39,616 nt of DNA from a virus: the IMG/VR virus record IMGVR_UViG_3300021479_000044, positions 1 to 39,616 of that record; one strand, given 5' to 3'. Made by a program: the position numbers and the translations under genes. Shown here in pieces: positions 26,766 to 34,387 of the stretch; positions within the stretch are counted from its first letter, which is position 1; each line of letters starts with the position of its first letter. The notes beneath the pieces were generated by a model that was given only the letters and a program-made list of their open reading frames with translations, was not told where the DNA came from and made no database searches.

Positions 26766-28115
26766 ATGAACATTCGAACCATGCGCCGCATCATCACGCG
26801 CGGCGTGATTGATATGGCAACGTCCCGGATCCTGGAATCCGAGGGCTATCTGTACTCAGGTCCGCTCGCGCTCGCCGACGGGCCGACCAGCGAAGCGCTG
26901 CGGCTCGCGATCAAAGCCGCGATCGAGGAGCACGGCAAAAAGGTAGCCGACGTCATGAAGGAGGTACAGGACAGCGTGAAAGCCAACGGCACCGTCGCCG
27001 AGGGCCTGAAATCTGCCGTCGCCAAACTCAACGAAGACGGCGCGAAGATGATCGCCGAGCACGAAAAATTGAAGGCGGAGAAGGCCGCGAACGACCAGCG
27101 CATCCTCGACCTCGAGCAGAAGATCCTGACGCGCGGCGGCCTCGGCGGTCCCGGCGGCGCGCAGAAGACGCTCGGCCAGCAGGTGATCGAGTCGGAGCAG
27201 TGGAAGGAGTTCGCGAAGCGCGCTGGCTCGCTGCGCTGTTCGATGATGCCGTTCAAGCTCAAGAACATCACCACCGTCACCGGCGGCGCGGGCGCGTTCC
27301 CTGAGTTCCTGCCGACTCCGGTCATTCCGCCGTTCCAGCCGCTGGTGATTCGCGATCTGCTGGACCACGGCACGACCGAGAGCAACCTGATCGAGTGGGT
27401 GAAGGAGACTCTGTTCACCAACGCCGCGGCGCCGGTCTCCGAGGGTGCGTTGAAGCCGCAGTCGGACATCACCTACGATCGTGTCAGCATTCCGGTGCGC
27501 ACCATCGCGCACTGGATCAAGGCCTCGAAGCAGATCCTCGCCGACTTCAAACAGCTGATGACGCTCATCGACGGGCGCATGAATTTCGGTTTGAAGCTGG
27601 TGGAGGAACGGCAAATTCTGTACGGAGATGGCACCGGCGACAACCTGCTCGGACTGATCCCGCAGGCCACGGCCTATTCGAGCGCGTTTCATCGGCCAAC
27701 CGACACGCGCATCGACGTGATCCGCCACGCGATGCTGCAGGTGAACCTGGCGTTCTACCCGTCGACCGGGATCGCCATGAGCCCGACCGACTGGCACGAC
27801 CTCGAGCTCACCAAGGACAGCCTGGGGCGCTACATGATCGCCAACCCCACGCAATCGACGCCGGGCATGTTGTGGGGGCTGCCGGTGGCGCAGGCCTACA
27901 GCATGGCACCGGGCGAATTCCTGGTGGGAGCGCTGAAGCTCGCGTGCACCCTCTTCGATCGCGAAGAGGCGCAGCTGCTGGTCAGCAATGAGGACCAGGA
28001 CAACTTCGTGCGCAACTTGGTCACCGTGCTCGAGGAGGAACGGATCGCGCTCGCGGTCTCGCGGCCGCAGGCGATCATCCACGGCTTCATCCCGTCGGGC
28101 GAGTCCACGCACTAA
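26766..28115 (+). CDS. Major capsid protein (HK97 fold)
   Basis: 449 aa from ATG at 26766, with AGGAGA about 8 bases upstream. The N-terminal about 125 residues are coiled-coil-like (delta/scaffold domain: AIEEHGKKVADVMKEVQDSV). The rest is the HK97 fold: TPVIPPFQPLVIRDLLDHGT, KPQSDITYDRVSIPVRTIAH, LADFKQLMTLIDGRM, and GDGTGDNLLGLIPQA. The protease upstream should cleave near residues 125-145. A hairpin terminator follows 20 bases after its stop. Confidence 0.95.
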   Translation: MNIRTMRRIITRGVIDMATSRILESEGYLYSGPLALADGPTSEALRLAIKAAIEEHGKKVADVMKEVQDSVKANGTVAEGLKSAVAKLNEDGAKMIAEHEKLKAEKAANDQRILDLEQKILTRGGLGGPGGAQKTLGQQVIESEQWKEFAKRAGSLRCSMMPFKLKNITTVTGGAGAFPEFLPTPVIPPFQPLVIRDLLDHGTTESNLIEWVKETLFTNAAAPVSEGALKPQSDITYDRVSIPVRTIAHWIKASKQILADFKQLMTLIDGRMNFGLKLVEERQILYGDGTGDNLLGLIPQATAYSSAFHRPTDTRIDVIRHAMLQVNLAFYPSTGIAMSPTDWHDLELTKDSLGRYMIANPTQSTPGMLWGLPVAQAYSMAPGEFLVGALKLACTLFDREEAQLLVSNEDQDNFVRNLVTVLEEERIALAVSRPQAIIHGFIPSGESTH

Positions 28116-28191: not shown

Positions 28192-28524
28192 ATGCCACAG
28201 TGCAAAGCGTTGAAGACCTTCGACAGCCGCTACGGCAAGGTCCGCTTGGGCGAGACGTTCGCGGCCGAGCAGGGCTACGCCGTTGATCTCAAGAGCAATG
28301 GCCTGGTCGAGATCCTGGGCGAGAAAAAGGCCGATCGCGAGCCGCAGCGAACTCAAGCCTTCGTCGGCGCGCCGCTCAACAAAGGCACGGACACGCTGGT
28401 GGGAAAAGGTACGGCGGACCCGTCGGGCGCTGGCGGGGGGAAACCGTTTGCGTCATCGCGAGCGGACCCAGCCTCACGCCGGGAGATTGCGCCGCCGTCC
28501 AAGCCGCCCAGTGCAAAACGATAG
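28192..28524 (+). CDS. Small post-capsid protein; frame ends out of register with the next gene
   Basis: 110 aa as an open frame. Residues 1-45 (KALKTFDSRYGKVRLGETF, then YAVDLKSNGLVEILGEK) look like a small beta domain found after phage capsid genes. A polar linker follows. After residue 83 (GAGGG, nt 28440) the sequence becomes Ser/Arg/Pro-rich and overlaps a conserved sequence in another frame, so the true C-terminus is doubtful. ATG preceded by CTGGAGAACC. Confidence 0.6.
   Translation: MPQCKALKTFDSRYGKVRLGETFAAEQGYAVDLKSNGLVEILGEKKADREPQRTQAFVGAPLNKGTDTLVGKGTADPSGAGGGKPFASSRADPASRREIAPPSKPPSAKR
28435..28443 (+). other. G6A3 tract at a frame junction
   Basis: The sequence GGCGGGGGGAAACCG lies where the reading frame of the 28192 gene must move by -1 (or gain one G) to continue into the conserved MptE-like frame that begins ETVCVIASGPSL at 28440. 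It may be a programmed slippage site or a base-count error in the run. Confidence 0.5.
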
Positions 28525-28562
28525 CCGTCAACACGAGCTTCCGCCTGGCCCTCTGGGCCGAC

Positions 28563-29036
28563 GTGCTGTACGCGTGTGACGACGCTTGGTGGATCGCCTA
28601 CTTCCCCGAGGTCGCCCGCGCCTTCCACGGCGAGCTGTGGACCATCAACCAAAACGCGCGCGATCGCTTCGACCTCAACTGGCTCCTCGGACTCGACAAA
28701 GCCGGCCTGTCGCGCGCTACGGGCGTCATCCACCAGGGCCAAAACTCGGGCTATCAAGCTGTCAGTCTGGCCCATCTATTCGGCGCTGCCCGAATCCTAC
28801 TGCTCGGTTTTGATTTCGGCCGCACGCACGGCCGCGCTCACTGGCACCGCGACCATCCCCCGGGTATGGGCAACGGCGGATCGTTTGCGGCCTGGATTGC
28901 GCACATGAACGTGCTCGCCGCCGAGCTCGCGGCCGCCGGCGTCGAGGTCATCAACTGCAGTCGCTACACCGCGCTGACCTGTTTCCCGCGCATGTCGATC
29001 GAGGAGGCCCTGTGCAAATCATCTTGTCGCCCTTGA
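28563..29036 (+). CDS. MptE/DUF115-like glycosyl-modification protein (conserved frame extends to 28440)
   Basis: The first start codon in frame is GTG at 28563, but conserved sequence continues upstream to 28440 without any ATG, GTG or TTG: VCVIASGPSLTPGDCAAV, then KTIAVNTSFRLALWADVLY. With it the protein is about 198 aa. The start motif ASGPSL and ADVLYACDDAWW are typical of phage proteins related to the MptE/DUF115 group, which often lie with glycosyltransferases. Later motifs: NSGYQAVSLAHLFGA, LLLGFDFG, HWHRDHPPGMGN. So it is probably fused to, or frameshifted from, the 28192 gene. Part of a cassette of sugar-transfer-like genes to 31240. Confidence 0.65.
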   Translation: MLYACDDAWWIAYFPEVARAFHGELWTINQNARDRFDLNWLLGLDKAGLSRATGVIHQGQNSGYQAVSLAHLFGAARILLLGFDFGRTHGRAHWHRDHPPGMGNGGSFAAWIAHMNVLAAELAAAGVEVINCSRYTALTCFPRMSIEEALCKSSCRP

Positions 29037-29239
29037 CGCTGCTGGCCTGCGTGGCGCTCGGCATCGCGCTCGGCAAACGACGCCCGGCCGACCCGCTCGA
29101 GCACGGCTTCGATACGATCGTGATGCGGATCGACCTCGGGCGCGTGTTCGTGTTTCGGATCTGGCTCGGCCGCGCGTTGATGAAGCTCTCGCTGTGGGTG
29201 ATCGGCGGCCGCGCGATCGTCCTCGAGTTCCCGGATTAA
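29012..29239 (+). CDS. Small membrane-associated protein of the glycosyltransferase cassette
   Basis: 75 aa from GTG at 29012, overlapping the upstream gene by 25 bases. An N-terminal hydrophobic helix (ILSPLTLLACVALGIALG) and a less hydrophobic second stretch (VFVFRIWLGRALMKLSLWVI). Could anchor the cassette's enzymes; not recognised. Confidence 0.5.
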   Translation: MQIILSPLTLLACVALGIALGKRRPADPLEHGFDTIVMRIDLGRVFVFRIWLGRALMKLSLWVIGGRAIVLEFPD

Positions 29240-29244
29240 TTGCA

Positions 29245-29871
29245 ATGCAAATAATCCCGACGCGCGGCCGGCCCTCTCTGATGCAGCGTTTTTTCTCGCT
29301 GGGCCAGCCGCAGGAACCCGGTGTGGTCGTGATCGACTCGGACCAGCTGGTGCTGTACCAGAGCCTGAAAATTCCGCGCAACTGGGAGCGGCTGATCGTG
29401 CCGCCGATGCTCGGCTTCGTGGCGAAGACCAATCGCGCGTTCGCCAAATATCCCGACCGCGCCTGGTACGCGTTCGGCGGCGACGATGCGATCGGCCGCA
29501 CGCCCTACTGGGACAGCCAACTCGCGACGCAAGCGCTCAAGGGCAAAATCGCCTGGGGCAATGACCTGATGGCCGGGCACTGCACGCACCCGTTCATCCC
29601 CGGAGACCTGGTGCGCGCGATGGGCTGGGTCTGCCACCCGGCCTTCAAACACCTGTACACCGATTCGATTTGGGAGCACATCGCGATCAAGGTCGGGATC
29701 GACTGCTACTGCCCGGAGATCATTCAAGAGGCGCACCACTACACGAACGGCAAACTGGAGCGCGATCGCACCAGCTTGGAACGCATGGAGCAGCTCGACG
29801 CAGCGACCTTCAAAACCATCGACCTCGAGGATCTCGAGACGAGGGCGCGGGCGTGCGTCTCCTCGCGGTGA
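29245..29871 (+). CDS. Putative glycosyltransferase
   Basis: 208 aa from ATG at 29245. IIPTRGRP at the N-terminus (compare the start of GT-A family proteins), VVIDSDQ at about 28-34, and AWYAFGGDDAIGRTPYWDSQ at about 74-93 with a GDD triplet resembling the metal-binding DxD of GT-A enzymes. Later CHPAFKHLYTDSIWEHIAIK. Overlaps the next gene by 19 bases. Donor and acceptor unknown. Confidence 0.6.
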   Translation: MQIIPTRGRPSLMQRFFSLGQPQEPGVVVIDSDQLVLYQSLKIPRNWERLIVPPMLGFVAKTNRAFAKYPDRAWYAFGGDDAIGRTPYWDSQLATQALKGKIAWGNDLMAGHCTHPFIPGDLVRAMGWVCHPAFKHLYTDSIWEHIAIKVGIDCYCPEIIQEAHHYTNGKLERDRTSLERMEQLDAATFKTIDLEDLETRARACVSSR

Positions 29872-30599
29872 TCGCCACCTATTGCATCGCGCACCGCGAC
29901 GCGAAGCTCTCGGCGCACCTGTACGACGCGCTGATCCATACACCACCGCGGGCCGACTATCAGGCGCTCGTCTCCGTGGTCGCGCATCCGGTGCTCGCGC
30001 TGCTGGCGCCGGCCGGTGCGCTCATGAACATCTGCGGCTGGCGCAAGATCATCACGCGCGGCGAGACCTCGCACCGCACCGTCACTCCGCTGCAGTCGAT
30101 GCAGATCCGGCGTACCGACTCGGAGCCGCATCCGGGCTTCGACTTCCTGCTCTGCCTGCACGATTTTTTCCAGGTTGGCCGACGCCACAAAAACGTGCGC
30201 GAGCAGTGGAACTCGAGCCACCATCAAGAGGATTTGCGCGAGTGCCTGAACCTCGCGCTCAAGATGGGCGTGATGACACCGGGTGAGCGCAGCGCGCTCG
30301 AGGCCGAGCCGGCGCTGATCGAGGGCGGCTGTTCGATGGGCGTCTACCCGGGCGACTTCGTGCGCGCGACGCTCGAGAAAGTCTGGCCGCTGTATCAGGA
30401 GTTCGCGCGCCTGCATCGCGGGCGGTTCATGCGCTATGACCCGGTGCAACGGCGCTGCGTCGCGTTCCTGGCCGAGCGCATCGAGACCCACTTCATCCTG
30501 AAGGAATTGCGGCGACGCTATTCGATCCCGCTGCCGCGCGAACTGTTCGGCTGTCTCACCGCCTGCTGGGAAGGTCCGTGGGAAGCGGGGCGGATCTGA
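29853..30599 (+). CDS. DUF4422-like glycosyltransferase-associated protein
   Basis: 248 aa from GTG at 29853. The C-terminal half follows DUF4422 (capsule/LPS synthesis) closely: REQWNSSHHQEDLRECLNLA, then GCSMGVYPGDFVRATLEKVW, RYDPVQRRCVAFLAERIETH. The N-terminus LLAVIATYCIAHRDAKLSAH is also of this type. Proteins of this family transfer or modify sugars of surface polysaccharides. Stop and next ATG overlap (TGATG). Confidence 0.65.
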   Translation: MRLLAVIATYCIAHRDAKLSAHLYDALIHTPPRADYQALVSVVAHPVLALLAPAGALMNICGWRKIITRGETSHRTVTPLQSMQIRRTDSEPHPGFDFLLCLHDFFQVGRRHKNVREQWNSSHHQEDLRECLNLALKMGVMTPGERSALEAEPALIEGGCSMGVYPGDFVRATLEKVWPLYQEFARLHRGRFMRYDPVQRRCVAFLAERIETHFILKELRRRYSIPLPRELFGCLTACWEGPWEAGRI

Positions 30600-31240
30600 T
30601 GCGCATTTTCACGGTCCTCAAATCGGGACGCGAATATCTGCCGTTGCACGTTCGGGCCCTCAAGCGCCAGATCGAGCAGCACAGCGCAACGCCGCACGAG
30701 TTCGTCTGCCTGACCGACATCCCGGTCGCCGGCGTCGAGTGCATCCGGCTCGATCACGACTGGCCCGGCTGGTGGGCGAAGATGGAACTGTTCCGGCCGG
30801 ACCTGCGCGGCTCGATCCTGTACTTCGATCTCGACACCGTGATCACCGGCTCGATCGAGCCGCTGTGTCAGGTCGCAGGCCTCACGCTGCTCAGGGACTT
30901 CTATCGCGACGGTGCGCCGGGCCACCAGCCCGAGGGCCTGGGGTCCGGCCTCATGCTGCTCCCCGAGGCCGATCGCATGACTCCGTGGCTCTCCTTCAGC
31001 CGTAACCCCAAACTGCTCATGAATCAGTTTCCGGGCGGCGATCAGCGCTTCCTCGAGATGCACTACCAACACCGGGCGGCGCGCTGGCAGGATCTCGTCC
31101 CGGGGGTCGTCAGTTGGAAAGTGCACTGCGCGCAGCGGGGCACCGTGCCGAAGGCCGCCGCGGTCGTCTGCTTCCACGGCCAGCCGCGCCCCTGGGCCGT
31201 CCCGCGCTTCCAAAATCTGTACCAGGAAGCCGCGCCGTGA
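30599..31240 (+). CDS. Putative glycosyltransferase (GT8-like, DxD motif)
   Basis: 213 aa. MRIFTVLKSGREYLPLHVRA, EFVCLTDIPVAGVECIRL, WWAKMELFRPDLRGSILYFD followed by LDTVITG: the FDLDT is a DxD metal/nucleotide-sugar site in the right place (about residue 80). Then GLGSGLMLLP and DQRFLEMHYQ. Similar proteins occur as glycosyltransferases in phage and bacterial genomes. Last gene of the cassette; 91 bases separate it from the head-tail connector. Confidence 0.7.
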   Translation: MRIFTVLKSGREYLPLHVRALKRQIEQHSATPHEFVCLTDIPVAGVECIRLDHDWPGWWAKMELFRPDLRGSILYFDLDTVITGSIEPLCQVAGLTLLRDFYRDGAPGHQPEGLGSGLMLLPEADRMTPWLSFSRNPKLLMNQFPGGDQRFLEMHYQHRAARWQDLVPGVVSWKVHCAQRGTVPKAAAVVCFHGQPRPWAVPRFQNLYQEAAP

Positions 31241-31331
31241 GGGTGTTCCACGTGGAGACATGGCCGCTCTTTCCCGGAGGATCGCCGACAAAAGCGTATA
31301 TTCCGAGCGCAATCCACTCACCGGAGGCCCT

Positions 31332-33786: not shown

Positions 33787-34055
33787 GTCTGCTCGAGGGC
33801 AGCGTGGAGATTCGCGGCGTCACCTACACGGTGCGCGAGATCAGCGGGCGACACATGCGCGAGGTCCGAAAGCGCTTGAAGGATTCGCCCGAGACCGTCG
33901 AGGCCTATCTCGCCTGGGCCTGCACGATCGAGCCGAAGTTCGCATCCGAATCGGTCGCCGCCGATGAATCGCACCTGGTCTTGAAGACCCTGAGCGAGAA
34001 GGCTTTCGCACTCTCGCAGGCACCTGTAGCCGAGGAGGAACCAAAAAACGACTGA
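33783..34055 (+). CDS. Tail assembly chaperone, short form (gpG-like)
   Basis: 90 aa; ATG overlaps tail tube stop. EIRGVTYTVREISGRHMREV is the common start of this family. Near the end the frame passes through A AAA AAC at 34043-34049 and stops 4 bases later (TGA 34053-34055). A fraction of ribosomes should shift -1 to make the longer gpGT form. It chaperones the tape measure protein. Confidence 0.85.
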   Translation: MSLLEGSVEIRGVTYTVREISGRHMREVRKRLKDSPETVEAYLAWACTIEPKFASESVAADESHLVLKTLSEKAFALSQAPVAEEEPKND

Positions 34056-34387
34056 CGCCTGAGCAGCTATTCGAGCACCGGCTCGCTGCGCTGCTCGGGC
34101 GTTCGTTGGGGGAACTCGATGAGCTCGGAGTCACTGAGCTCGCACGCTGGGCGCAGTATTGGATCGAGGAACCCTGGGGTAGCGTGCGCGACAACATGCA
34201 CGCGGGCCTGATTATCACGGAGCTCATGAAACCGCATCTGCCAGAGGGCGCAACGATGTCGATCGACCAGTTCATGCTCAAGTCGAAAGCCGAACTTGAC
34301 GAGGCCGCGCGCGCGCGCATCGTCGCCGCGCTCTCGGCAATGGCCGCCGCCGGTGAACGCGCCGCGCGCCGCGAGAAAAAGCCATGA
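33783..34387 (+). CDS. Tail assembly chaperone, frameshift product (gpGT-like)
   Basis: 201 aa formed by -1 frameshifting at 34043-34049 (reading CCA AAA AAC in frame 0), continuing from 34049 as KKRLTPEQLFEHRLAALLG and on to GELDELGVTELARWAQYW and ERAARREKKP. The downstream frame has no good own start; its first is a TTG at 34106 inside the homologous sequence. gpG/gpGT frameshifting is a conserved feature of siphoviruses. The stop overlaps the tape measure ATG. Confidence 0.85.
34043..34049 (+). promoter_or_regulatory. -1 ribosomal frameshift site A AAA AAC
   Basis: A perfect X XXY YYZ heptamer in the chaperone frame (..CCA AAA AAC GAC TGA), one codon before the zero-frame stop. The -1 frame continues open for 112 codons into the next ORF. 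Confidence 0.9.

Follow-up and report, generated by a model that had tools for sequence, protein, structure and literature searches.

A start-less glycosyltransferase-like frame behind a phage capsid gene, with strong support for its expression by −1 frameshifting

How can a conserved protein domain be made from a reading frame that offers the ribosome no start codon? The question is raised by a gene pair behind the major capsid protein gene of a tailed phage, found in a 39,616-nt stretch of DNA from an IMG/VR virus record (the whole stretch analysed is called the window here). A sequence-only reading of the window had suggested that the two genes are expressed as one fusion of a capsid-adjacent protein with a sugar-modifying protein. 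We evaluated this idea in the window and in relatives, and the frameshift-fused gene looks real, widespread and overlooked by annotation. The features of the locus are listed in Table 1.

Table 1. Features of the head-gene region in the window
Feature	Position	Strand	Remarks
Terminase gene	22829		head-gene order
Portal gene	24622		head-gene order
Prohead protease gene	26073		head-gene order
Major capsid protein gene	26766..28115	+	HK97 fold, PF05065 Phage_capsid
Zero-frame gene	28192..28524	+	110 aa, 11.6 kDa; N-domain (residues 1 to ~45) and unstructured tail
Slippery heptamer G_GGA_AAA	28401..28407	+	zero frame GTG GGA AAA GGT; identical in L002
Predicted 8-bp hairpin, candidate stimulator	28419..28437	+	11 nt 3′ of the heptamer
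−1 frame read after a slip	28407..29036	+	209 codons
Glycosyltransferase-like domain, start-less	28437..29033	+	phrog_4603; Maf / GT42 Cst-II / MptE-like fold (predicted)
G6A3 tract (slip site of the sequence-only reading)	28435..28443	+	varies among relatives; unlikely to be where the slip occurs

The start-less frame and its conservation

The frame of the glycosyltransferase-like (GT) domain is open from 28287 to 29036, is bounded on its 5′ side by an in-frame TGA at 28284-28286, and stands in the −1 relation to the zero-frame gene. We observed no ATG, GTG or TTG in this frame in the 92 codons from the 28284 stop to 28563. The first such codon is the GTG at 28563, 42 codons past the start of GT-domain homology (at about 28437, with GETVCVIASGPSL). 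This confirmed the start-less conserved frame beside a capsid gene that had been described from the window. A start at this GTG would delete residues 1-42 of the GT domain, which in the structural model include the GPSL loop and two strands (2-7 and 27-31). As these residues form the first strands and the loop, such a product would be broken. Entry in frame from farther upstream was rejected, since the 28284 stop blocks it, and near-cognate start codons were also rejected, as the window's GT frame has no CTG, ATT, ATC, ATA or ACG five or more codons ahead of the GPS motif.

The nearest relatives, L002, L003 and L004 (86%, 82% and 65% identity), had the same −1 overlap with no nearby start. Two collection scans further yielded 116 usable loci encoding the GT domain (84 clusters at 75% identity). 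In 68 of these loci (42 of the 84 clusters) the GT frame had no start back to its in-frame stop, and the count, along with the three independent relatives, indicated that the arrangement is not due to chance. Among the 70 loci having no start within 60 codons, 67 showed a −1 overlap with a small upstream ORF. In L005, L064, L068, L079 and phage S20 the GT frame opens just 11-20 codons before the motif, so that the domain would be reachable by a frame change alone. A gene resembling that of the major capsid protein lay directly upstream in 61 of the 68 start-less loci versus 17 of the 48 others (Fisher P ~1e-9). A tblastn search of phage records with the zero-frame protein gave no significant match.

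GT homologues placed elsewhere (PAJU2 and P1 among them) had ordinary starts. In L055 and L058, where a separate N-domain gene lies about 255 codons off, an ATG of its own is available to the GT gene at most 19 codons from the motif. Relatives with an ATG and no fusion, which had been named as evidence against the fusion idea, were thus seen where the GT gene is not next to the small one (PAJU2, P1, L055/L058), and not in the capsid-adjacent group. Relatives carrying a fused gene, which had also been suggested as a check, were found as well. In L061 the N-domain (hmmsearch E 0.0037) and the GT domain share a single unbroken frame, and L025, L057 and L074 looked by eye like the same in-frame fusion, with profile support that was weaker or none. 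Judged from these sequences, at least one relative (L061), and probably four in all, encode the fusion in a single frame.

A single metagenomic contig with a frame that has no start codon might carry a decaying pseudogene, or a shift introduced by an assembly or sequencing error. However, the same arrangement recurred dozens of times, across independent contigs, genomes of bacteria and phage isolates, and relatives sharing it ruled out the sequencing error that the sequence-only reading had raised as a cause. The dN/dS of the GT domain was roughly 0.2-0.3 beyond the overlap (estimated for the window, L002, L003, L004 and L015), a ratio indicating that the domain is under purifying selection, and the catalytic-fold motifs of the family were nearly invariant. 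The pseudogene reading was rejected on the dN/dS of about 0.2, and decay or error is hardly conceivable as an explanation. Within the overlap, taken from 14 codons ahead of the GPS motif onward, constraint was seen in the −1 frame (pN < pS) but not in the zero frame, whose pN was mostly at or above pS. The zero-frame tail would therefore be largely a by-product of coding in the −1 frame.

The GT domain could also be translated separately, from a non-canonical start or through translational coupling within the overlap. Overlap and coupling are common among phage genes, in D3-type phages a GTG or TTG stands about 20 codons ahead of the motif, and some loci have an ATA, ATC or ATT. However, 17 of the 68 start-less loci (the window included) had no CTG, ATT, ATC, ATA or ACG five or more codons ahead of the motif, and no start position was common across loci. 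The near-uniform −1 relation also argues against separate translation, which leaves both the in-frame fusions and the enrichment of slippery heptamers (described below) unexplained. We regard it as quite unlikely.

The isolated phages carry the pair as two annotated genes, the second of them truncated. In the deposited D3 (orf7), S20, Psp6 and phPA-G the gene callers dropped the first strand and the GPSL motif. For this reason the enzyme is annotated wrongly and has probably been missed in functional work. The D3 pair orf6.5/orf7 and its relatives show the same gene pair, with the −1 overlap after the capsid gene and a C_CCA_AAG heptamer; they differ in being annotated as separate genes, with orf7 shortened, and in having a possible GTG or TTG start.

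The position of the slip

Canonical X_XXY_YYZ heptamers were present in the zero phase of the overlap at 35 of 46 loci, while the other two phases had them at 10 and 2 loci. Codon shuffling gave an expected mean of 10.1 loci (sd 2.8) for the zero phase, and 0 of 2000 shuffles reached 35. When the heptamers were limited to Y = A/T, they were seen at 26 loci against 3.2 expected, and after clustering at 52% identity a heptamer was present in 17 of 22 (5.1 expected, sd 2.0). The heptamers varied by lineage (G_GGA_AAA, G_GGA_AAG, A_AAA_AAG, C_CCA_AAG, C_CCT_TTC, A_AAC_CCN and T_TTT_TTG). Such variety would be expected of lineages that each maintain a slip site instead of inheriting a single motif. 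The isolates D3, PMG1, phPA-G and D14C had C_CCA_AAG in common, and S20, which has no start, had C_CCT_TTG. The G_GGA_AAG of L006 is also the slip site of lambda G/GT. The tail assembly chaperone pair G/GT of dsDNA phages uses the same −1 slip on X_XXY_YYZ, but its genes, their position and their products differ from those described here.

A canonical heptamer was absent in 11 of the 46 loci. One group of loci (L022, L035, L040, L080 and L095), to which a Candidatus Omnitrophota contig belongs, lacks canonical heptamers but keeps a TTTT run in the overlap, which is perhaps a single-codon slip site.

The only zero-phase heptamer of the window is G_GGA_AAA, which is shared with L002 and lies 28 bases 5′ of the G6 tract. 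We consider it probable that this is the exact slip codon in this phage. The heptamer is missing at the aligned position in the close relatives L003, L004 and L017, so the slip codon may be a different one; another candidate is single-codon slippage on C_CCG at 28421-28424. A 50-nt run over the slip site is identical between the window and L002, and lends weak support (for the longest such run within the two genes, permutation P 0.034). The longest identical run between the two measures 57 nt (28526-28582) and lies in the GT domain just past the overlap, not at the slip site. The region 28408-28475 had a predicted folding energy of −34.6 kcal/mol (z −1.69), and across the group the downstream structure showed a modest enrichment over shuffles (mean z −1.16 vs −0.18). 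These values are only suggestive of a role for the downstream hairpin as a frameshift stimulator.

The sequence-only reading had instead placed the event on the G6A3 tract, as a −1 shift or as a one-base gain in transcripts; in the latter version, slippage of RNA polymerase on a homopolymer would yield edited mRNAs. The GGGGGGAAA tract is indeed present, but its zero-frame reading GGG GGG AAA does not fit X_XXY_YYZ. At the same position the relatives have GGGGAGAAA (L002), GAGGCGAAA (L003) and GAGGTGAAA (L004), the counterparts of the G6 being GGGGAG, GAGGCG and GAGGTG, respectively. With neither a tandem-slip phase nor conservation, the tract is probably the wrong site, and G_GGA_AAA is the better candidate. 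Runs long enough for polymerase slippage do occur in L005 and L064 (A9) and in L062/L063 (T9-10). However, the G6 of the window is short and not conserved, and most relatives show heptamers only (GGGAAAA, CCCAAAG and CCCTTTC, for example) and no long run. Slippage by the polymerase is thus very unlikely as the explanation. Where runs of 9-10 A or T stand at the overlap (L005, L062, L063 and L064), transcriptional slippage could replace ribosomal slippage.

Strong support for the proposed fusion, although not for G6A3 as its site and mechanism, comes from the start-less frames, the phase-specific slippery heptamers, the purifying selection and the in-frame fusion found in one or more relatives. 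A programmed −1 frameshift that fuses the zero-frame protein to the GT domain is, in our judgement, highly probable. The two frames would then be one gene. The majority of ribosomes would complete the zero-frame protein (a small domain with a disposable tail), and a minority would slip back by one base, most likely at G_GGA_AAA, possibly aided by the hairpin. A slip at 28407 would give a product of 281 aa and 30.5 kDa, in agreement with the fusion of about 280 residues and 30 kDa foreseen from the window, in which the N-domain bears the glycosyltransferase-like domain.

Predicted folds and possible function

The strong support is for the frameshift; the function we infer from predicted folds and gene position. 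When we examined the GT domain with profiles, it matched phrog_4603 (annotated as alpha-2,3-sialyltransferase) with an E of 1e-52 over profile positions 1-175 of 178. The match to the MptE-like family PF01973 reached 26.1 bits, under the gathering cut-off of 34.6. This family gave a weak match in 49 of 63 family members, the best being 3.4e-07. The GT-domain model had a pLDDT of 95.7. A plain Foldseek search with it returned mostly Rossmann folds, which a second look resolved to the Maf flagellin glycosyltransferase (5mu5; Z 16.7 over 177 residues), the sialyltransferase Cst-II (Z 12.3) and an archaeal MptE-type HPPK (Z 11.2). Against the sequences of solved structures, the GT profile found a chance match only. 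The GT domain is predicted to fold like the Maf and Cst-II transferases. The fold predicted to be common to it, Maf (5mu5), GT42 Cst-II and MptE-type HPPK extends over 140-177 residues (Z 11-17), without a sequence match to a solved structure.

For the N-domain, the model reached about 95 for residues 1-40, and the top Foldseek match was Bacillus YqbF (2hjq). The C-terminal domain of lambda gpFI (2lsm) superposed with an rmsd of 0.8 over 42 residues (Z 4.9, a low value, on a domain of 45 residues). GINS and L9 folds also matched, and other small folds scored alike. A match of the N-domain profile to archaeal GINS (E 4e-4) was taken as fold resemblance. The N-domain is tentatively predicted to fold like the gpFI C-terminal domain and YqbF. 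This likeness is one of predicted fold, with Z of only about 4-5 and no significant sequence match, and the terminase-binding helical domain of gpFI was not seen in the N-domain. The gpFI gene of lambda follows the major capsid gene, as the N-domain gene does here. The gpFI protein binds the gpE lattice (PMC4856287).

Like gpFI in lambda, the N-domain may dock on the capsid lattice, and the Maf/Cst-II-like transferase that it carries, present in low copy, would glycosylate the procapsid or capsid. A capsid-docking glycosyltransferase is a tentative assignment, and so are its putative activity and substrate. It is possible, though we lean slightly away from so broad a claim, that many tailed phages and prophages form an unrecognised class that uses −1 frameshifting to attach such a transferase to a protein docking on the capsid; a fixed minority of these subunits would then glycosylate the particle (procapsid or virion) while seated on its surface.

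The fusion could also be real while the GT domain acts on host surface sugars, or serves as a binding domain displayed on the virion. The P1 homologue pmgO stands alone, is annotated as a sialyltransferase and was non-essential in a CRISPRi screen (PMC10695390), and the extensions that frameshifting adds to capsid proteins are in many cases domains for display, for example Ig-like (PMC5009743). Against both possibilities stand the place of the N-domain behind the capsid gene, its gpFI/YqbF-like predicted fold and two further glycosyltransferase-type genes just downstream in the window (starting at 29227 and 30578). We hold either to be possible, but less likely than not.

Extension of phage capsid proteins by frameshifting is established, and one and the same extension is encoded in frame by some phages but out of frame by others (PMC5009743). 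In T7/T3 gene 10, Lactobacillus A2 and Listeria A118/PSA, a minority of the capsid-gene product likewise gains a C-terminal domain by a +1 or −1 shift (PMC5009743). The present case differs from these in its base, which is a small post-capsid gene and not the major capsid protein, and in the added domain, which is enzyme-like (a glycosyltransferase) and not Ig-like. FlmG is a modular flagellin glycosyltransferase, in which a separate binding domain recruits the structural protein to the GT domain (PMC7591256). It resembles the predicted fusion in joining a binding domain to a GT domain; however, FlmG consists of TPR and GT-B parts, is made from one ordinary ORF and acts on the bacterial flagellum (PMC7591256).

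In the open-licence literature that we searched, we found no report of a glycosyltransferase joined by frameshifting to a small post-capsid gene, and the gene pair is absent from the papers on GeneTack and PRFect. Glycosylation of phage virions has been reported, but to our knowledge little is known of how the glycosylating enzymes find the phage particle. If our proposal is true, the ratio of bare to enzyme-bearing docking proteins, which we suppose to be set by the frameshift, would be a simple targeting device. The locus would also be a third common place of frameshifting in tailed phages, besides the tail chaperones and the Ig extensions of capsid and tail proteins.

Three further observations concern the neighbouring DNA. 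A small hydrophobic ORF with a GTG start (29012-29239) overlaps the end of the GT frame. The stretch 29227-31240, between the fusion and a head-tail connector at 31260, holds the two glycosyltransferase-type genes, assigned to phrog_14945 and phrog_1962, together with an ORF for which no match was seen. Finally, a probable tail assembly chaperone pair of the G/GT type (33787-34387) precedes the tape measure gene and would give this phage a second frameshift, of the ordinary kind; its zero frame ends in EEEPKND at 34055, its −1 frame covers 33968-34387, and its candidate slip site is A_AAA_AAC, in CCA AAA AAC near 34040.
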